NCBI GenBank assembly: GCA_016938535.1
Contig: JAFGUL010000138.1
Location: 1 to 6,112 of the forward strand
Origin: Candidatus Delongbacteria bacterium
GTDB lineage: Bacteria > Delongbacteria > UBA4055
Direction: 5' to 3'
DNA: 6,112 nucleotides
Part shown: positions 69-6,112 of the stretch, piece by piece
Numbering within the stretch: position 1 is the first letter of the stretch
How the letters are laid out: each line of letters opens with the position of its first letter
Program-made: the position numbers and the translations under genes
The notes under the pieces: generated by a model
Databases searched by the model: none
What the model saw: the letters and a program-made list of their open reading frames with translations, nothing else
What the model was told of the DNA's origin: nothing

Positions 69-186
69 GGAAAGGAGCTTGAAATGTATTCAAAAGAAAA
101 ATATTGCGTCATTACGCGCGAAAAAGCACGGAAGGACTTTTGTTTGGAAAAATTGACAACTCAAAACTAAACAAAAGGAGAAACAA

Positions 187-978
187 ATGTTCAAAAAAAT
201 GATCAAAGTGCTTGGATTGTCTTTACTAGCGATCTCGGTTTTCACAGCATGCACGGATGATGAAGATCCTATGATCCCGGATGACGGCCAGTCAGAGATA
301 CCTTACCTGACAATGGGGAACTTCACAGCGGCCGGTGATTCTGCAATTTACACAATTGATGTGACAGATGAAGATACGCTGTCAGTTTACTGGATCGAAG
401 CGGGAACTGTTTCAAAAGCTGACGCTGAAATTGAATGTTCTGTGTTCAAGAAAGACGGGATAACACCCTACAAGCAGATCGATAACGGAAAAGATTTTCT
501 AAATATCACGAACAGTGCTCCGACAAACGCTAAGAGGATCAATGTTGAAGAGAATGAGATAGTAGTCAAGGTCAAAGGAATAACAGCAGGTGATTATACT
601 CTTCTTTCTACATCAGAGAAACCGTACTATTTCGCAAATGAGGACCTGCTCGCAGACACTTTAACCGTATTCGATTACACTGTACCTGTAGGCTCGGCCG
701 AATATGTTTATATCTATTGGGAAGAGCTGGATGATAACACAGGTGAAAGTGCGGACATACAGGGATCGGTATATAAAATGGACGGTGTTACAGCTTATAA
801 AATAGCCGACAACAATAAAGATTTCGTGAATAAAGACAACAGCTCATTAGACAATCCCAAGCCGATACAGGTCGATCCGCTTGAGACTTCAATAAAGATC
901 CACATTGAAAGAGATATATCCAATCCGGTAGTTGGAAATTTTAAAATTTATGTAAGGGAAACTTCAGTTGAGTGGTAG
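187..978 (+). CDS. two-domain lipoprotein, probably surface exposed
   Basis: This encodes a 263-residue exported lipoprotein of unknown function. The N-terminus has KK, a hydrophobic stretch (about residues 7-20) and a lipobox-like VFTAC with the acylated Cys at 22. The next residues, TDDED, are strongly acidic; in Bacteroidota such residues act as an export signal to the cell surface. The mature part contains two copies of one beta-rich domain (about 60-140 and 165-258), vaguely like pre-peptidase C-terminal (PPC) domains; that family call is weak. A strong ribosome site (AAAAGGAG, 173-180) sits 6 bases before the ATG and fixes the start over Met5. The gene overlaps the TonB receptor start by 11 bases. 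Lipoproteins paired with TonB receptors often act as surface ligand-binding partners or lids (SusD-like logic), although this one is not SusD-like in sequence. It is the first gene of the operon. Function is inferred from context. Confidence 0.85.
   Translation: MFKKMIKVLGLSLLAISVFTACTDDEDPMIPDDGQSEIPYLTMGNFTAAGDSAIYTIDVTDEDTLSVYWIEAGTVSKADAEIECSVFKKDGITPYKQIDNGKDFLNITNSAPTNAKRINVEENEIVVKVKGITAGDYTLLSTSEKPYYFANEDLLADTLTVFDYTVPVGSAEYVYIYWEELDDNTGESADIQGSVYKMDGVTAYKIADNNKDFVNKDNSSLDNPKPIQVDPLETSIKIHIERDISNPVVGNFKIYVRETSVEW
421..957 (+). repeat. internal tandem domain duplication in the lipoprotein
   Basis: Residues 85-120 and 194-229 of the lipoprotein align without gaps at a constant offset of 109 residues, with 20 of 36 positions identical. 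Shared motifs include SV(F/Y)K, DG(I/V)T, YK, a D-N-x-KDF block and N-x-K-x-I-x-V. The flanking strand (…SVYWIE / …YIYWEE) and the end strand (GDYTLL / GNFKIYV) also correspond. The duplication is old, because the DNA copies are well diverged. Cys84 just before the first copy has no counterpart in the second (Gly193). Confidence 0.8.
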
Positions 979-3109
979 AATATCATATATCCTTTTTTCT
1001 GGACTGATCCTGACAGTTTCACTTTTTTCCCAGATGGACGAGGTTATTCTGCCAGAGCTGAATGTTTCTGTGGAACAGGAAAGCAGGGAGATGAGAAAGC
1101 TTGCCGCAAGCAGGAAGATAATAATCAACCAGAAAGACTTTGAGAACCTGGGGGACATCACGGCCGGAGATGTTATAAAAAGATATCCCGGCCTGTGGGT
1201 CCAGGGACCTGTCAGTTCGAACAGAAATGTGCTTCTGTGCGGACTTGATAAAGTTTTTCAGTCGGTAATGATAGACGGTAACAGACCGGCAGGGGGCGAA
1301 GCCGACCGTGAATTCAAGCTTGACAGAATACCTCTCGATGCCATCGACAGGATCGAGATCATAAACATTCCAACTGTGGATTACTGCTCAGATGCGGTTG
1401 CAGGCGTTGTAAATCTGGTTACTAAAAAAAGCGAGTTCCAAAAGAAACTGCTGATTGATGTCTCCCCTTCAGCGAATTCAACTAATGATTACAAGGCCGG
1501 GAACGGTGAAATATACGCATCACTGAAACAGAATAATTTCTTTTTGAGCGGTAGCTATAATACCGAAGCAAGGATCAATACCGAAGAACTTACAGACCCG
1601 ATTACAGGCATAAACGGAGATGTTGAAGAAGATTGTGACATTCAGATCCTGACATTTAATACCAATTCGGGTTTTATGGCCGGTGAGAACATGAGATTAT
1701 CCTTTGATGCGCTCTATTCAAAATTCGATGAGGTCAGAGATATAGTTCAGAATGTGAAGCTTAGATCTCAGGGAGGACTTAATTACAGGAATATCGTGAC
1801 AGGTCAGACTATGTACAGGGGTCTTGTTCAGGGCGGGATCAGGCTCGATCATGACTTCAGTTCAAACAGGGATCTTTCTTCCCGGATCCTTTTTGCGCGT
1901 TCAGATGATGAAAAAGTCAAATATCTCACCGAACAGAAAAGTGCAGGAATAGCCTACACTGATGAGAATGAGGATCAGGAAAATTACGAACTCATGATGC
2001 AGTCGGACTATACGGATCTCGGAAGAATGATGTTCACTCATCAGAACACTTTTAAGACCGGTTTTAAGATCAATTACCTCATAAGAGACTACGACAGGTA
2101 TGTTGAAACTATCGAGGAAAGTCTGACTGATACTCTGATATCAAAAGAGGACGGATCTTTCGAATATGATGAATTCCAGGCAGGATACTACATCAGGGAC
2201 GAGCTTTATATCAAACCTGTGATCTATTCTTTCGGAATAAGGGCGGAATATGCATATTACGATTACCTTGTCAATTTTTCAGAAAAAACGGGAGATAACG
2301 GTTACTTTTTCATAAACCCTTCACTTCTTCTCAACTATAAGATAAATCAGAATAATATAATAAAAGCCGGATTTTCCAGGCAGATCGCAAGGCCTCCGTT
2401 CGCTTCTGTCGTACCGGTGGATAAGATCAAGACCAAAAAAAATATCATCGAAAGAGGTAATCCCGACCTTCTTCCTGCAGACGCATGGGTTTATAATCTC
2501 GGGATCGAATTCTACAGAGGATCTGATTTTTTCTCGGTGTACGGATATTTTAAGGATGTGAACAACATAATCGAGATAGAGAATGTCGGTGTCGATGGAG
2601 CCACCGGTTATAATATTCAGCAGTTCGTCAATATTGCGGATGCTCTCGTTTTTGGAGTGGATGTGGAATTTACCATTTATATGGATAAATTCGGTGCAAA
2701 AGGACTTTCGCTTTCAGGAAATTATTCCTGGCTCGGTTCTCAGATCGAGGATGAAAACACAGGGCTTATGAGAAGACTGAACGAACAGCCCATGAACATC
2801 ATTAACGGAAGCATCAATTACAAATATGATAAACTCTTTCTCTCGGCAGGCGTTAATTATACTGACGAAAAGATCATCTGGGCTACAATAGTGGACGGAT
2901 CAGTAACGGATAAATCCGTAACCGATGAATTCCTTCAGTTCGACGCGTCGGTCAAGTACAGGTTCAATGAATCTCTTACCGCTTATTTAAATGCCGAGAA
3001 TGTTTTCGGCGAAAAAGTCAGAACTGTACAGGGTACTGTCGAAGGCACAGAAACCATGGGAACGACACTAACACTGGGACTTAAATACGGGATAAGTGGA
3101 AAAAAATGA
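968..3109 (+). CDS. TonB-dependent outer-membrane receptor
   Basis: This is a 713-residue outer-membrane gated porin for TonB-energised uptake; the ligand is unknown. Residues 1-22 form a signal peptide. The plug domain spans about 50-153, with the family patterns MIDGNRP (101-107), IPLDAIDRIEI (121-131) and AVAGVVNLVTKK (143-154). The rest is a beta-barrel with the typical C-terminal-half motif RQIARPPF followed by a RGNPDLLPAD-type segment. The start is TTG at 968, eight bases after AAGGGA (954-959), inside the lipoprotein gene; the first ATG (1034) would delete the signal peptide. There is no N-terminal carboxypeptidase-like domain. Two odd points: Cys91 and Cys140 occupy plug positions usually held by Arg (RG) and Gly (YG) in relatives, and the protein ends SGKK rather than in the usual terminal aromatic residue. 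The stop overlaps the next start (ATGA). The family call is firm; the substrate is open (metal chelate, cofactor or peptide). Confidence 0.93.
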   Translation: MSGRISYILFSGLILTVSLFSQMDEVILPELNVSVEQESREMRKLAASRKIIINQKDFENLGDITAGDVIKRYPGLWVQGPVSSNRNVLLCGLDKVFQSVMIDGNRPAGGEADREFKLDRIPLDAIDRIEIINIPTVDYCSDAVAGVVNLVTKKSEFQKKLLIDVSPSANSTNDYKAGNGEIYASLKQNNFFLSGSYNTEARINTEELTDPITGINGDVEEDCDIQILTFNTNSGFMAGENMRLSFDALYSKFDEVRDIVQNVKLRSQGGLNYRNIVTGQTMYRGLVQGGIRLDHDFSSNRDLSSRILFARSDDEKVKYLTEQKSAGIAYTDENEDQENYELMMQSDYTDLGRMMFTHQNTFKTGFKINYLIRDYDRYVETIEESLTDTLISKEDGSFEYDEFQAGYYIRDELYIKPVIYSFGIRAEYAYYDYLVNFSEKTGDNGYFFINPSLLLNYKINQNNIIKAGFSRQIARPPFASVVPVDKIKTKKNIIERGNPDLLPADAWVYNLGIEFYRGSDFFSVYGYFKDVNNIIEIENVGVDGATGYNIQQFVNIADALVFGVDVEFTIYMDKFGAKGLSLSGNYSWLGSQIEDENTGLMRRLNEQPMNIINGSINYKYDKLFLSAGVNYTDEKIIWATIVDGSVTDKSVTDEFLQFDASVKYRFNESLTAYLNAENVFGEKVRTVQGTVEGTETMGTTLTLGLKYGISGKK
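2900..2926 (+). repeat. short in-frame tandem repeat (SVTD-K-SVTD) in the receptor
   Basis: Two 12-base units, at 2900-2911 and 2915-2926, differ at two positions, are separated by AAA and encode SVTD twice. The same stretch also forms an imperfect inverted repeat (GTAACGGAT facing ATCCGTAAC, one mismatch). It falls near the end of the barrel, probably in an external loop, where short duplications are tolerated. Confidence 0.6.
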
Positions 3110-3843
3110 AAATACTGATATCTATCGACGATACCGATGACATCGGTACTAAAGGAACCGGGGAAATACTCGAAGAATTGTGTTGCGGACTCAAAAAAAA
3201 GTTCGGCGGCAATTACTCGAGAGTAACCAGGCACCAGCTGCTTGTTCACGATGACATACCTTATACTTCGCATAACAGCTCCATGTGCTGCGAAGCAGAA
3301 ATTGACGGAACGCATCTTGACGGATTAAAAGACTTTTCGATCCGGTTTCTGGAAAGCAACTGTGCGGACAGATCTGACCCCGGACTTTGTATTGCTGTTA
3401 CAGAGAACCTGAAACCCGGCGTTCTCGATAAATTGATCAAGTGGGGATATTCAGCAAAAATTGAAGTTCTGACAAAAGACGGAGCATACAAGCTCGCCGG
3501 TGAAACAGGAATACATCTTTCGGAGCACGGCGGTACGGGAGACGGGGTGATCGGAGCACTTGCCGGTGCAGGCCTCAGGCTTACCGGGAACGACGGAAGG
3601 TTCAAAGGCAAGTTCGACATGCACTCACCGGAAGGATACCTGTCAGTCAAAGAGATAGAAGATTCAGAGCATATTGATGAAATCAGGGATGAAAAATTCA
3701 ATAAAATACCTTCTGCTGAAAAGATATACATCGCGGACAAGATCAAGACCGTACTTTACGGACACAAGTCTGTTCTTCTTGTAAAAAAAGACGAATGCGG
3801 CAGGCTGACCAATCTTTCAAGAAAAGAGATCAAGGAGATTTAG
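3106..3843 (+). CDS. stand-alone TiaS-like protein (TCKD plus ferredoxin-like domain)
   Basis: This 245-residue cytoplasmic protein is related to the N-terminal half of archaeal TiaS, which uses ATP and agmatine to modify C34 of tRNA-Ile2. Visible hallmarks are the N-terminal ISIDDTDDIGTKGTGE (residues 6-20; acidic Asp8, Asp9, Asp11), the IPYTSHNSS segment (51-59) that matches the TiaS IPxKTRGNAA region, and GTGDGVIGALAGAGLRLTGND (143-163), equivalent to the TiaS GRGxIGALAAIG motif of the ferredoxin-like domain. TiaS continues into OB-fold and zinc-ribbon domains that bind tRNA; these are absent. The only Cys pairs are CC at 26-27 and CC at 61-62, so a tRNA substrate is doubtful. A small-molecule or peptide kinase/ligase role is inference. 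It starts at the ATGA overlap with the receptor; the weak upstream GTGGA suggests translational coupling. It is followed after 4 bases by a small Cys protein that may be its partner. Confidence 0.75.
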   Translation: MKILISIDDTDDIGTKGTGEILEELCCGLKKKFGGNYSRVTRHQLLVHDDIPYTSHNSSMCCEAEIDGTHLDGLKDFSIRFLESNCADRSDPGLCIAVTENLKPGVLDKLIKWGYSAKIEVLTKDGAYKLAGETGIHLSEHGGTGDGVIGALAGAGLRLTGNDGRFKGKFDMHSPEGYLSVKEIEDSEHIDEIRDEKFNKIPSAEKIYIADKIKTVLYGHKSVLLVKKDECGRLTNLSRKEIKEI

Positions 3844-3847
3844 GGTC

Positions 3848-4060
3848 ATGTGGACAGTTGAAAGTGGAAGAAAAATATTCAGATACGGTTTAAACGACTA
3901 TTCCAAAGCACGGTCGGCTGCAGCAGAATGCTCCAGTTTTCTTACAGATGACGAAGATGAGATCATTGATGATTCGGTTTCATGTTATAACTGCGCATAC
4001 AGAAGATATTCCGGAAATACGATAAGCTGTCTGGCCCGTTCAGAAAAGAGCATCAAATGA
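3848..4060 (+). CDS. small CxxC-containing protein of unknown function
   Basis: This is a 70-residue protein that I do not recognise. The N-terminus (MWTVESGRKIFRYGL) is basic and aromatic. An acidic linker follows (DDEDEIIDD, 34-42), then a Cys module C46-Y-N-C49-AYRRY and C61, with a further Cys28. CxxC-x11-C with Cys28 could supply four ligands for zinc or an Fe-S cluster. It has no signal peptide or membrane segment. Start support is AAGGAG at 3832-3837, 10 bases upstream. The gene lies 4 bases after the TiaS-like gene and overlaps the ABC exporter gene by ATGA, so it is almost certainly co-translated with both. It could be a metal-binding subunit of the TiaS-like enzyme, perhaps replacing its missing zinc ribbon. 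Less likely, it is a ribosomally made precursor peptide exported by the ABC protein. Both ideas are inference. Confidence 0.7.
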   Translation: MWTVESGRKIFRYGLNDYSKARSAAAECSSFLTDDEDEIIDDSVSCYNCAYRRYSGNTISCLARSEKSIK

Positions 4061-5751
4061 AATCAGTCAGATTCCTGTGGTCATACATCTTAAGGTCAAA
4101 AAAACACATAATACTCGGTGTCGTTTTCACGCTTTTAATGAGCATCGTCAGTATTTTTCCGGGTGTGATCTATAAAATTATCGCCGATTCGCTTACAAAA
4201 CTGACCAAAACCGCTGATAAACTCAACATTAAGGTCCCTGTCAAGATACCTGTGATAGAGATCGAACCTCTTAAATTTTCAGTCAAAGACCCCGAAAGGA
4301 TATTCTCTGTATTCGTTCTTATTTGCGTACTTTTCGTTATAATTTACATACTTGACGGACTTTTCAGATATTTAAGAGATATTTACTTCAATTTCGCCAT
4401 TCAGAAGATCTTAAAAGAGATAAAGGATGCTGTCTGCGGAAAAATTCTGGCTCTTCCCTATTCCGAGTTTACAAAAAACAGGACCGGGGATCTGATGTCA
4501 AGAGTTACTTACGATGTCACCATACTGCATAATGTGATAGATATTTTCATTGAACTCTCAAGGTCCCTTATATCGCTGATGATCTTCTGTCCGATACTTT
4601 TTTACATCAATTTTAAGGTGTCTCTGATCGCCTTTCTGTTCTTCCCCGCATCTTTTTACATAATAAGATATTTTTCACGGAAGATGAAGATCCTGAGTAA
4701 AGGGATCTCGGACACAACTGCTGATTATACCGAATTTCTGAAAGATAAAGCGGAAAGGAATGCCGTAATTAAACTTGCGGGCAGTTCAGAACAAGAACTC
4801 AATGATTTTAAATCACTCACAAAAAGAAAATACGAGCTTGCAGTCAGGAATATAAAGATAAAATTCTTTCTTAAGCCTTCAAATGAAATTATCGGGGTTC
4901 TCGGTATAGCTGTGATAGCTATTTATTTTTGCAGGCTGCTTCTAAATAAAGAAATGGGGGCGGGGAATATCGTCCTTTATATCTCTGTATTGAAAGAAGC
5001 TTATAAACCATTCAAAAAAGTAGCCGAATCAATAGGCGATCTTAATTTCTCACTTGCAGGAGCAGATAAAATAGTAAAATTTCTTGAAAACCCGGAAGAA
5101 AGACAGTCAGGAGAGAACATCCGGGGCTCTATAAACGAGATCGAGTTAAGAAATGTTTCACTTTCTTTCGGAGATAAAAAAGCAACCGGCCCGCATTCGA
5201 TGATATTTAAAAAAGGGCTATCTTACGGGATAACAGGTCCTTCCGGATCAGGAAAGACGAGTCTCTCAAACCTGATCCCCGGACTTTACACTGCTACTTC
5301 GGGAACGATATCATTTAACGGAAAACCGTTAAATGATATTTCCCTTTCTGATATCCGGAAAAGAATTTCTTTCGTAAATAACGAACATTCTGAACTTTCA
5401 GGAACACTTTCTGATATAATGAGCTACGGCGTAACAAATGCGGCAGAAAAGATCGGTGAACTTAACTCAAACGGAATAATAGAAGGATTTCTCGATATTG
5501 AGGGTTACGATCCTGATCTGAAAACCGGCAAGGAAGGTATCAGGCTTTCGTCGGGACAGGTACAGAAGCTGCTCCTTGTAAATGCGATTTTAAAAGAACC
5601 TGAAATTATTATAATTGACGAGAGCCTCGATCTGCTCGCCGAAAATGATGTTGACACCTTTTTTAAACTCATAAGAAAAGATATTATTCTGATCATAATT
5701 TCAAGACAGGAACGCATTCTAAGCCGGTTCGATACGATAATTAATTTCTAA
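4057..5751 (+). CDS. ABC exporter half-transporter (TMD-NBD fusion), atypical ATPase
   Basis: This is a 564-residue inner-membrane protein. Residues 1-340 are a six-helix type-I exporter membrane domain with clear hydrophobic segments near 18-45, 82-100, 168-185, 188-205 and 276-296. An unusually long first periplasmic loop (about 48-80) contains a VPVKIPVIEIEP stretch. The ATPase has Walker A GPSGSGKT (394-401), signature LSSGQ (497-501) and Walker B IIIID521 with catalytic Glu522. Departures from the family are the Q-loop Gln replaced by Asn442 (FVNN), the D-loop Asp replaced by Ala528, the H-loop His replaced by Arg550 (ISRQ), and an end only 14 residues after the H-loop, lacking the usual C-terminal helices. 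These suggest a slow or degenerate site, perhaps in a heterodimer, but no partner gene follows. The start is the ATGA overlap with the small Cys gene. The substrate is unknown, and the operon context points to the same molecule handled by the upstream genes. Confidence 0.9.
   Translation: MKSVRFLWSYILRSKKHIILGVVFTLLMSIVSIFPGVIYKIIADSLTKLTKTADKLNIKVPVKIPVIEIEPLKFSVKDPERIFSVFVLICVLFVIIYILDGLFRYLRDIYFNFAIQKILKEIKDAVCGKILALPYSEFTKNRTGDLMSRVTYDVTILHNVIDIFIELSRSLISLMIFCPILFYINFKVSLIAFLFFPASFYIIRYFSRKMKILSKGISDTTADYTEFLKDKAERNAVIKLAGSSEQELNDFKSLTKRKYELAVRNIKIKFFLKPSNEIIGVLGIAVIAIYFCRLLLNKEMGAGNIVLYISVLKEAYKPFKKVAESIGDLNFSLAGADKIVKFLENPEERQSGENIRGSINEIELRNVSLSFGDKKATGPHSMIFKKGLSYGITGPSGSGKTSLSNLIPGLYTATSGTISFNGKPLNDISLSDIRKRISFVNNEHSELSGTLSDIMSYGVTNAAEKIGELNSNGIIEGFLDIEGYDPDLKTGKEGIRLSSGQVQKLLLVNAILKEPEIIIIDESLDLLAENDVDTFFKLIRKDIILIIISRQERILSRFDTIINF
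5308..5339. repeat. perfect 14-bp inverted repeat with AAAA loop inside the ABC gene
   Basis: ATATCATTTAACGG (5308-5321) is followed by AAAA and then its exact reverse complement (5326-5339). A flanking G5307·T5340 adds a wobble pair in RNA. It lies between Walker A and the Q-loop, where the reading frame encodes an ordinary NBD sequence (ISFNGKPLNDIS), so the palindrome fits within conserved coding. The T-rich ATTTCCC after it is too short and interrupted to call it an intrinsic terminator. Confidence 0.9.
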
Positions 5752-5824: not shown

Positions 5825-6112
5825 ACGAACAAGATCTACGCGCTCATAGACTGCAACAGTTTTTACGCCTCGTGCGAGAGGGTTTTCCGTCCCGAACTGA
5901 AGAACGAACCCGTAGCTATCCTTTCCAACAATGACGGCTGCGTTGTGGCCTTGACGAAAGAGGCGAAAGACCTCGGCGTTAAGCGCGGGAACCCGTATTT
6001 TAAAATTGAAAAAAATATCCTCGAAAAACTGCATGTTTTTTCATCGAACTACACGCTATACGGAGACATGAGCCACAGGGTGATGACGATCCTGTCTGAA
6101 TTTTCGCCCGGC
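5825..6112 (+). CDS. umuC: Y-family DNA polymerase UmuC (pol V catalytic subunit), 5' part
   Basis: This is the first 96 codons of a translesion polymerase, cut by the window end. UmuC copies damaged DNA, usually as part of the SOS response with UmuD'. Recognisable blocks are IDCNSFYASCERVFRP (8-23; catalytic Asp9, Tyr14 near the steric gate), AILSNNDGCVVALTKEAK (31-48) and FSSNYTLYGDMSHRVM; the second catalytic motif (SIDE) lies beyond the window. No ATG, GTG or TTG precedes the catalytic Asp. A TAA at 5822-5824 closes the frame, so the frame begins at ACG (5825), six bases after a perfect GGAGG (5814-5818). The protein would start MNKIYALIDC, as expected for the family. The first in-frame GTG (5945) would remove the active site. 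Arginine codons include CGT and CGC, unlike the AGA/AGG-rich upstream operon. No umuD is adjacent. Confidence 0.88.

Follow-up and report, generated by a model that had tools for sequence, protein, structure and literature searches.

The window, the whole stretch of 6,112 nucleotides from a Candidatus Delongbacteria contig that we analysed, carries a riboswitch followed by five genes on the plus strand. These encode a lipoprotein (187..978), a TonB-dependent outer-membrane receptor (968..3109), a stand-alone TiaS-type enzyme made of the TCKD domain (3106..3843), a small protein recognised by its pattern of invariant residues and termed here CYNC (3848..4060), and an ABC half-transporter of the type IV (MsbA/BmrA-like) family (4057..5751). 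Consecutive genes overlap by 11, 4 and 4 bp, with a single gap of 4 bp. An earlier note on this DNA had taken the five coupled genes for one unit and it was right to do so, as the overlaps were confirmed and the gene order is common to three Ca. Delongbacteria genomes; the five-gene operon is real and conserved. Most of the closest relatives whose source is named come from Ca. Delongbacteria. The lipoprotein, the TiaS-like protein and CYNC have no Pfam match at cut-off. Behind the operon, at 5825-6112 and directly after an in-frame TAA, lies the frame of a UmuC-like polymerase whose first codon is ACG, 6 nt behind GGAGG; it has no ATG, GTG or TTG before 5945, suggesting a rare start codon or a sequence error.

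The Rfam search of the window returned a single match, the molybdenum/tungsten cofactor (Moco/Tuco) riboswitch aptamer RF01055 at 1-93 on the plus strand (47.0 bits against a gathering score of 36, E 4e-9). Its 5' end, 27 model positions, falls outside the window and its 3' end lies 93 nt upstream of the lipoprotein start at 187. A covariance model that we built from 16 RF01055 copies, the window copy being among these training sequences, scores it at 67.7 bits. The P3 element of RF01055 is a gap in the window alignment; judged by eye, it is carried by none of the 16 first-aligned copies, and it is missing from the RF01055 copies that Rfam detects upstream of all three orthologous Delongbacteria operons (L001, L002, L003). 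According to the excerpted text of Regulski 2008 (PMC2408646), 58 of 176 RF01055 copies are without P3 and go with tungsten-cofactor organisms and genes, exceptions included, the assignment of the P3-less subclass to the Tuco ligand being correlative. By homology, the window riboswitch would thus fall into the tungsten-cofactor (Tuco) class. Between the aptamer and the first gene, fold and leader comparison predict an expression platform at 136..180, in which CTTTTGTTT (137-145) is predicted to pair with AAACAAAAGG (169-178; fold z -2.5). Such pairing would mask the ribosome-binding site AAGGAG (175-180). Across four leaders both segments hardly vary, L002 having a single mismatch, and the leader may control translation.

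The earlier note, which had overlooked the riboswitch, knew of no named pathway for this gene set. With the riboswitch linking the operon to the tungsten/molybdenum cofactor, a pathway can be named. Among 13 Delongbacteria genomes, the TiaS-like gene is found in three (G001, G002 and G003), and an ortholog of the ABC protein (E 1e-100 or better) in exactly the same three, a coincidence with a chance of 1 in 286. G001 and G002 contain two RF01055 copies each and G003 contains four, counts that stayed the same when every first-look candidate in the 13 genomes was scored, and one copy in each genome heads the operon. Further copies precede moaA-moaC in two of the three genomes, once in G002 and twice in G003 (L088, L089, L090); MoaC was matched by search at all three loci, L088 was assigned by a full family scan, and MoaA was assigned by Pfam at L089 and by likeness alone at L090. 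The contig of moaC in G001 shows no RF01055. The MoaA proteins of L088 (3554-4354) and L089 (4382-5182) are short (266 aa), with a cysteine triple at the C-terminus and a GG end. In G001 and G003 a further copy precedes a TupABC-like tungstate importer (L087, L091), the TupA search having covered these two genomes; the binding proteins of both match TupA and, in G001, TupB is matched by the permease, all scores staying below the equivalog cut-offs. WtpA is absent from G001, G002 and G003. All three therefore synthesise pterin themselves, and in G001 and G003 tungstate probably enters through the products of genes outside the operon. As the TupABC-like importer is already there, uptake of bare tungstate by the operon would be redundant in G001 and G003, and with pterin (and in these two genomes tungstate) covered elsewhere, the operon should contribute something further, be it uptake of a chelate or of a pterin, or another range of affinity.

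The lipoprotein consists of two similar repeats behind a lipobox-like FTAC, with Cys22 kept in 12 aligned homologs. At E 0.01 it has 17 homologs, four of them with a named source (two Delongbacteria, one Clostridiales MAG and one Labilibacter). Plug and barrel of the TonB receptor are both over the Pfam cut-off (PF07715, 1.5e-10; PF00593, 1.1e-26; PF14905, 3.4e-27). At L001 (1363-3290) the receptor is split into two ORFs by a frameshift or an assembly error, and we left these unjoined. The ABC protein has its membrane and ATPase domains over the Pfam cut-off, as expected of type IV, and its best sequence matches are BmrA and MsbA. Among four orthologs, the membrane domain is 69-76% identical whereas the ATPase domain is 36-52% identical, the reverse of the usual, in which the membrane half is the less conserved one; strong conservation of this domain is as would be expected for a specific substrate. 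In all four the H-loop position, its place being judged by eye, shows Arg or Lys instead of the His of an ordinary ATPase site. These features fit a dedicated, unusual transporter.

The TiaS-like protein carries IDDTD at residues 7-11 and T18 and shares the TCKD fold with archaeal TiaS. Could it therefore modify tRNA-Ile2 as archaeal TiaS does and lie in the operon by chance? The common fold is what speaks for this. Archaeal TiaS has further RNA-binding and zinc-ribbon domains, whereas the window protein is a stand-alone domain of 245 aa, against 402, 420, 440 and 252 aa (3u02) for the matched chains, and scores 21.2 bits in NCBIfam against a curated TiaS cut-off of 600 (methanogenesis marker protein 11: 28.9 bits against 255.8). 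Hosts of a true TiaS are expected to be without TilS, which acts on this tRNA in bacteria, and yet TilS was above cut-off in 21 of 21 tested genomes with the TiaS-like gene. With the gene linked, in addition, to importers and the riboswitch, a role in tRNA-Ile2 modification is extremely improbable.

CYNC was aligned over 39 sequences (36 of the 61 loci described below, the window and the database proteins P0121 and P0122). Eight positions are invariant, namely four Cys, two acidic residues, an Asn and an Arg (C28, D34, E38, C46, N48, C49, R52, C61), within the motifs C-x5-D-x-E/D-x-E and SC-x-NC-xx-R(R)W...C. The earlier note had proposed searching genomes for co-occurrence of the two proteins. 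Our genome scan gave 277 relatives, ranked by how closely they resemble the window protein; the best 80 of 277, from 77 genomes, were taken as loci for counting, with counts uncorrected for phylogeny. In 61 of these best 80 loci, the TiaS-like gene has a CYNC homolog within 300 nt, downstream in 55 and upstream in six. Four loci (L040, L041, L048 and L064; three Syntrophomonas records and one Firmicutes MAG) have two to three TiaS-like genes in tandem.

Nor does the pair occur mostly without transporters, as the earlier note had considered. An importer part, that is, FecCD, a binding protein, EcfT, an ECF S-like component or a TonB receptor, was seen in 64 of the best 80 of 277 loci (same strand, 60; within 500 nt, 49) and was not seen in the other 16. 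Two main layouts recur, one in which a Big_5 Ig-like exoprotein, FecCD, an ATPase and a binding protein are followed by the TiaS-like gene and CYNC, and one in which ECF genes, often with a TonB receptor, precede the pair. This linkage rests on adjacency and repeated order rather than on importer frequency. Secreted Big_5 Ig-like proteins are encoded in 39 of the best 80 of 277 loci (e.g. L006:4057-4962) and are perhaps Gram-positive counterparts of the lipoprotein.

Profiles of these importers cover 14 of the 29 binding proteins, 12 of the 28 permeases and 14 of the 20 S components in the respective clusters; those of permease and binding protein were compared with PDB entries. The FecCD permease is closest to HI1471 (MolB) at 300 bits, against 197 for a heme permease and 162 for the vitamin B12 permease BtuC, and the binding protein matches 4ovk (unnamed) at 157 bits and HI1472, which we take to be MolA, at 139 bits, with B12-binding proteins at 31 bits or less. 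In the excerpted text of PMC4031551, molB is HI1471 and MolA binds molybdate and tungstate. MolBC-A-like systems are the commonest importer class among the TiaS-like loci, and permease and binding protein of this kind make a species of tungsten or molybdenum likelier than a pterin alone. Organic cofactors are the usual cargo of TonB receptors and ECF systems, whose use at these loci favours something larger than a bare oxyanion. Since metal-type importers and bulky-cargo carriers both accompany the pair, a tungsten chelate becomes the first choice of substrate and cofactor salvage its main rival.

The riboswitch linkage extends to other genomes. Our covariance model found 46 sites, namely the window copy, a weak one (23.8 bits) and 44 others in 28 of the best 80 of 277 loci, so that a riboswitch on either strand is present in only 28 of the 80. 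Rfam, run on 43 of the 80 with the other 37 covered by our model alone, confirms 42 of the 44 sites, in 27 loci; of the remaining two, one is in L079, the unscanned twin of L078, and one, in L077, is seen by our model only. In 24 of the best 80 loci, upstream status being assigned by reading of rows, the riboswitch lies on the same strand upstream of the TiaS cluster, all 24 copies scoring above the Rfam gathering score and an opposing ORF of at least 100 aa intervening only in L059. At L039, L051 and L065 it lies 89-97 nt upstream of the TiaS-like gene itself. Judged by eye, P3 is absent from 23 of the 24 upstream copies. The exception, at L033 (Desulfosporosinus), includes a hairpin resembling P3. 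That form is linked to molybdenum and not to tungsten, so that the molybdenum form of the cofactor may be what is sensed there; this leaves the odds of our reading of the operon as before, because that reading covers tungsten or molybdenum.

When 35 genomes were searched whole, 125 RF01055 sites were found in 137.6 Mb, and 14 of 35 loci were seen with a riboswitch against 0.62 expected (Poisson p ~7e-15, kinship uncorrected), an expectation that may be low, as at most 68 first-look candidates were scored per genome and copies may have been missed. At the same depth, 14 of the 35 genomes yielded no copy of RF01055. A TiaS-like locus of Sporomusa sp. KB1 carries a cobalamin riboswitch (L034:3163-3345). 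We conclude that the TiaS-like gene and CYNC make up an uncharacterised module that occurs widely and is linked to the tungsten/molybdenum cofactor regulon, that the operon almost certainly belongs to this regulon, and that it is most likely an acquisition system. Uptake under metal or cofactor limitation, a theme of the earlier note, is borne out by RF01055 upstream and by the importer neighbours elsewhere.

The other theme of that note, production or export of a small molecule or modified peptide, finds no support. It would take the form of a siderophore-like loop, in which a chelator made with the help of the TiaS-like protein and CYNC leaves the cell through the ABC protein and, once loaded, returns through the TonB receptor. 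The ABC protein does come from an exporter-type family and the receptor is present, but no chelator or other biosynthetic genes were recognised in the window (Pfam, NCBIfam), the pair adjoins FecCD/binding-protein or ECF importers in other phyla, and the other 77 loci yielded no ORF that matches the window ABC protein at E 1e-40 or better. We consider such a loop improbable. Some known ABC proteins of the exporter fold take up siderophores or cobalamin (IrtAB, YbtPQ, Rv1819c). As the slot of the ABC protein is held by importers elsewhere and such exporter-fold importers exist, import is favoured, and by analogy the window "exporter" may be the inner-membrane import step.

Cofactor and tungsten-enzyme genes at some loci also speak for the link to the cofactor: among the best 80 of 277 loci, AFOR is present in three (L009, L050, L065), MoaA in four, MoaC in two and MoeA in three (L004, L009, L050). 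At the genome level, MoaC was matched in 75 of the 77 genomes with TiaS-like loci, those of L052 and L060, both MAGs, giving no match, and there are therefore no clear pterin auxotrophs. AFOR is present in 30 of 35 genomes with the TiaS-like gene and absent from five. Its co-occurrence does not discriminate, because AFOR is also common in genomes without the gene: in Delongbacteria, 3/3 with the TiaS-like gene vs 7/10 without, and in the sampled family of G006, 2/2 vs 63/119. This suggests that tungsten enzymes can do without the pair. In the five genomes with the pair and no AFOR match (L024, L031, L053, L005, L032), another tungsten or molybdenum enzyme may be served. An amino-acid-kinase family (UMP-kinase-like) protein is encoded in 10 of the best 80 of 277 loci (e.g. 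L042:11729-12532); molybdenum storage proteins belong to the amino-acid-kinase superfamily. An HdrD-like (CCG) membrane FeS reductase occurs in 17 of the best 80 (e.g. L037:9022-11163), and at L043, L058 and L067 it lies downstream of the same RF01055 riboswitch.

These data bear on the salvage of pterin, by which tungstopterin or its breakdown products would be imported, the TiaS-like enzyme would re-phosphorylate or activate them, and CYNC, with the HdrD-like reductase in some loci, would keep the dithiolene reduced. Salvage would agree with that reductase, with the organic cofactors usually carried by TonB and ECF systems, and with the other RF01055-led genes, which handle pterin synthesis (G002, G003) and tungstate uptake (G001, G003). 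The riboswitch ligand class is, moreover, the cofactor itself (PMC2408646, excerpted text). Nonetheless, the near-universal MoaC weakens cofactor import, and MolBC-A-like systems are the commonest importer. The free molybdenum/tungsten cofactor is, in addition, very labile. On balance, salvage as the function of the operon appears unlikely.

Based on our data we propose, with a probability of roughly 0.65, that the operon is a Tuco-controlled acquisition system for a tungsten or molybdenum compound that is processed in the cytosol by the TiaS-like protein and CYNC. At low Tuco, the P3-less riboswitch would permit translation; the lipoprotein and the TonB receptor would take the compound, with its tungsten or molybdenum, through the outer membrane, and the ABC protein would move it across the inner membrane, replacing the MolBC-A-like and ECF importers of other phyla. 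In the cytosol, the ATP-dependent TiaS-type enzyme and the four-cysteine CYNC would release the compound, or activate it, to serve the assembly of Tuco. As for the substrate, tungsten as an organic chelate is our first choice, at about even odds, and a pterin form of the cofactor the second, at distinctly longer odds. A broader suggestion, which we put forward tentatively, is that the pair stands at the centre of a widespread bacterial pathway, so far undescribed, for the import of a preformed tungsten cofactor, tungsten-pterin or chelate through a lineage-specific importer (FecCD, ECF, or TonB with an exporter-fold ABC protein), with re-activation by the TiaS-type enzyme and ATP.

If the proposal is true, the operon adds an outer-membrane and ECF-linked route for tungstate or molybdate, two uncharacterised protein families receive a first function, and tungsten acquisition at trace levels or cofactor reuse by bacteria becomes testable. 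No described link was found in the open-licence literature. Three ABC routes for tungstate or molybdate were listed in 2025 (PMC11980592, excerpted text), and MolBC-A is a further molybdate/tungstate route (PMC4031551, excerpted text).

How does the operon compare with these systems? With the Moco/Tuco regulon it shares the aptamer and the P3-less Tuco class, the regulon combining pterin-synthesis and molybdate/tungstate-uptake genes, whereas the excerpted text of PMC2408646 names no TonB receptor, ECF importer or TiaS-like/CYNC pair; a riboswitch operon of Syntrophomonas wolfei is said there to hold "other genes of unknown function". TupABC, WtpABC and ModABC have a likely common end purpose with the operon, and TupABC-like genes also stand under RF01055 in G001 and G003, but the protein families are different: no binding protein or permease of these systems was found in the operon (Pfam, NCBIfam; for the ABC protein, among the matches listed, 25 of 169 families). 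MolBC-A (HI1470-1472) is the nearest solved relative of the FecCD permease that accompanies the TiaS-like gene in Bacillota and others, and the second-best match of the neighbouring binding protein, whereas the window, without FecCD or a MolA-like binding protein, has a TonB receptor and a type IV ABC protein instead. For the latter, IrtAB, YbtPQ and Rv1819c are a precedent of an exporter fold used for import. Finally, archaeal TiaS and methanogenesis marker protein 11 have the TCKD domain in common with the window protein, which differs in being a stand-alone domain far under both curated cut-offs, and the TiaS-like system suggests where to seek the role of archaeal marker protein 11.
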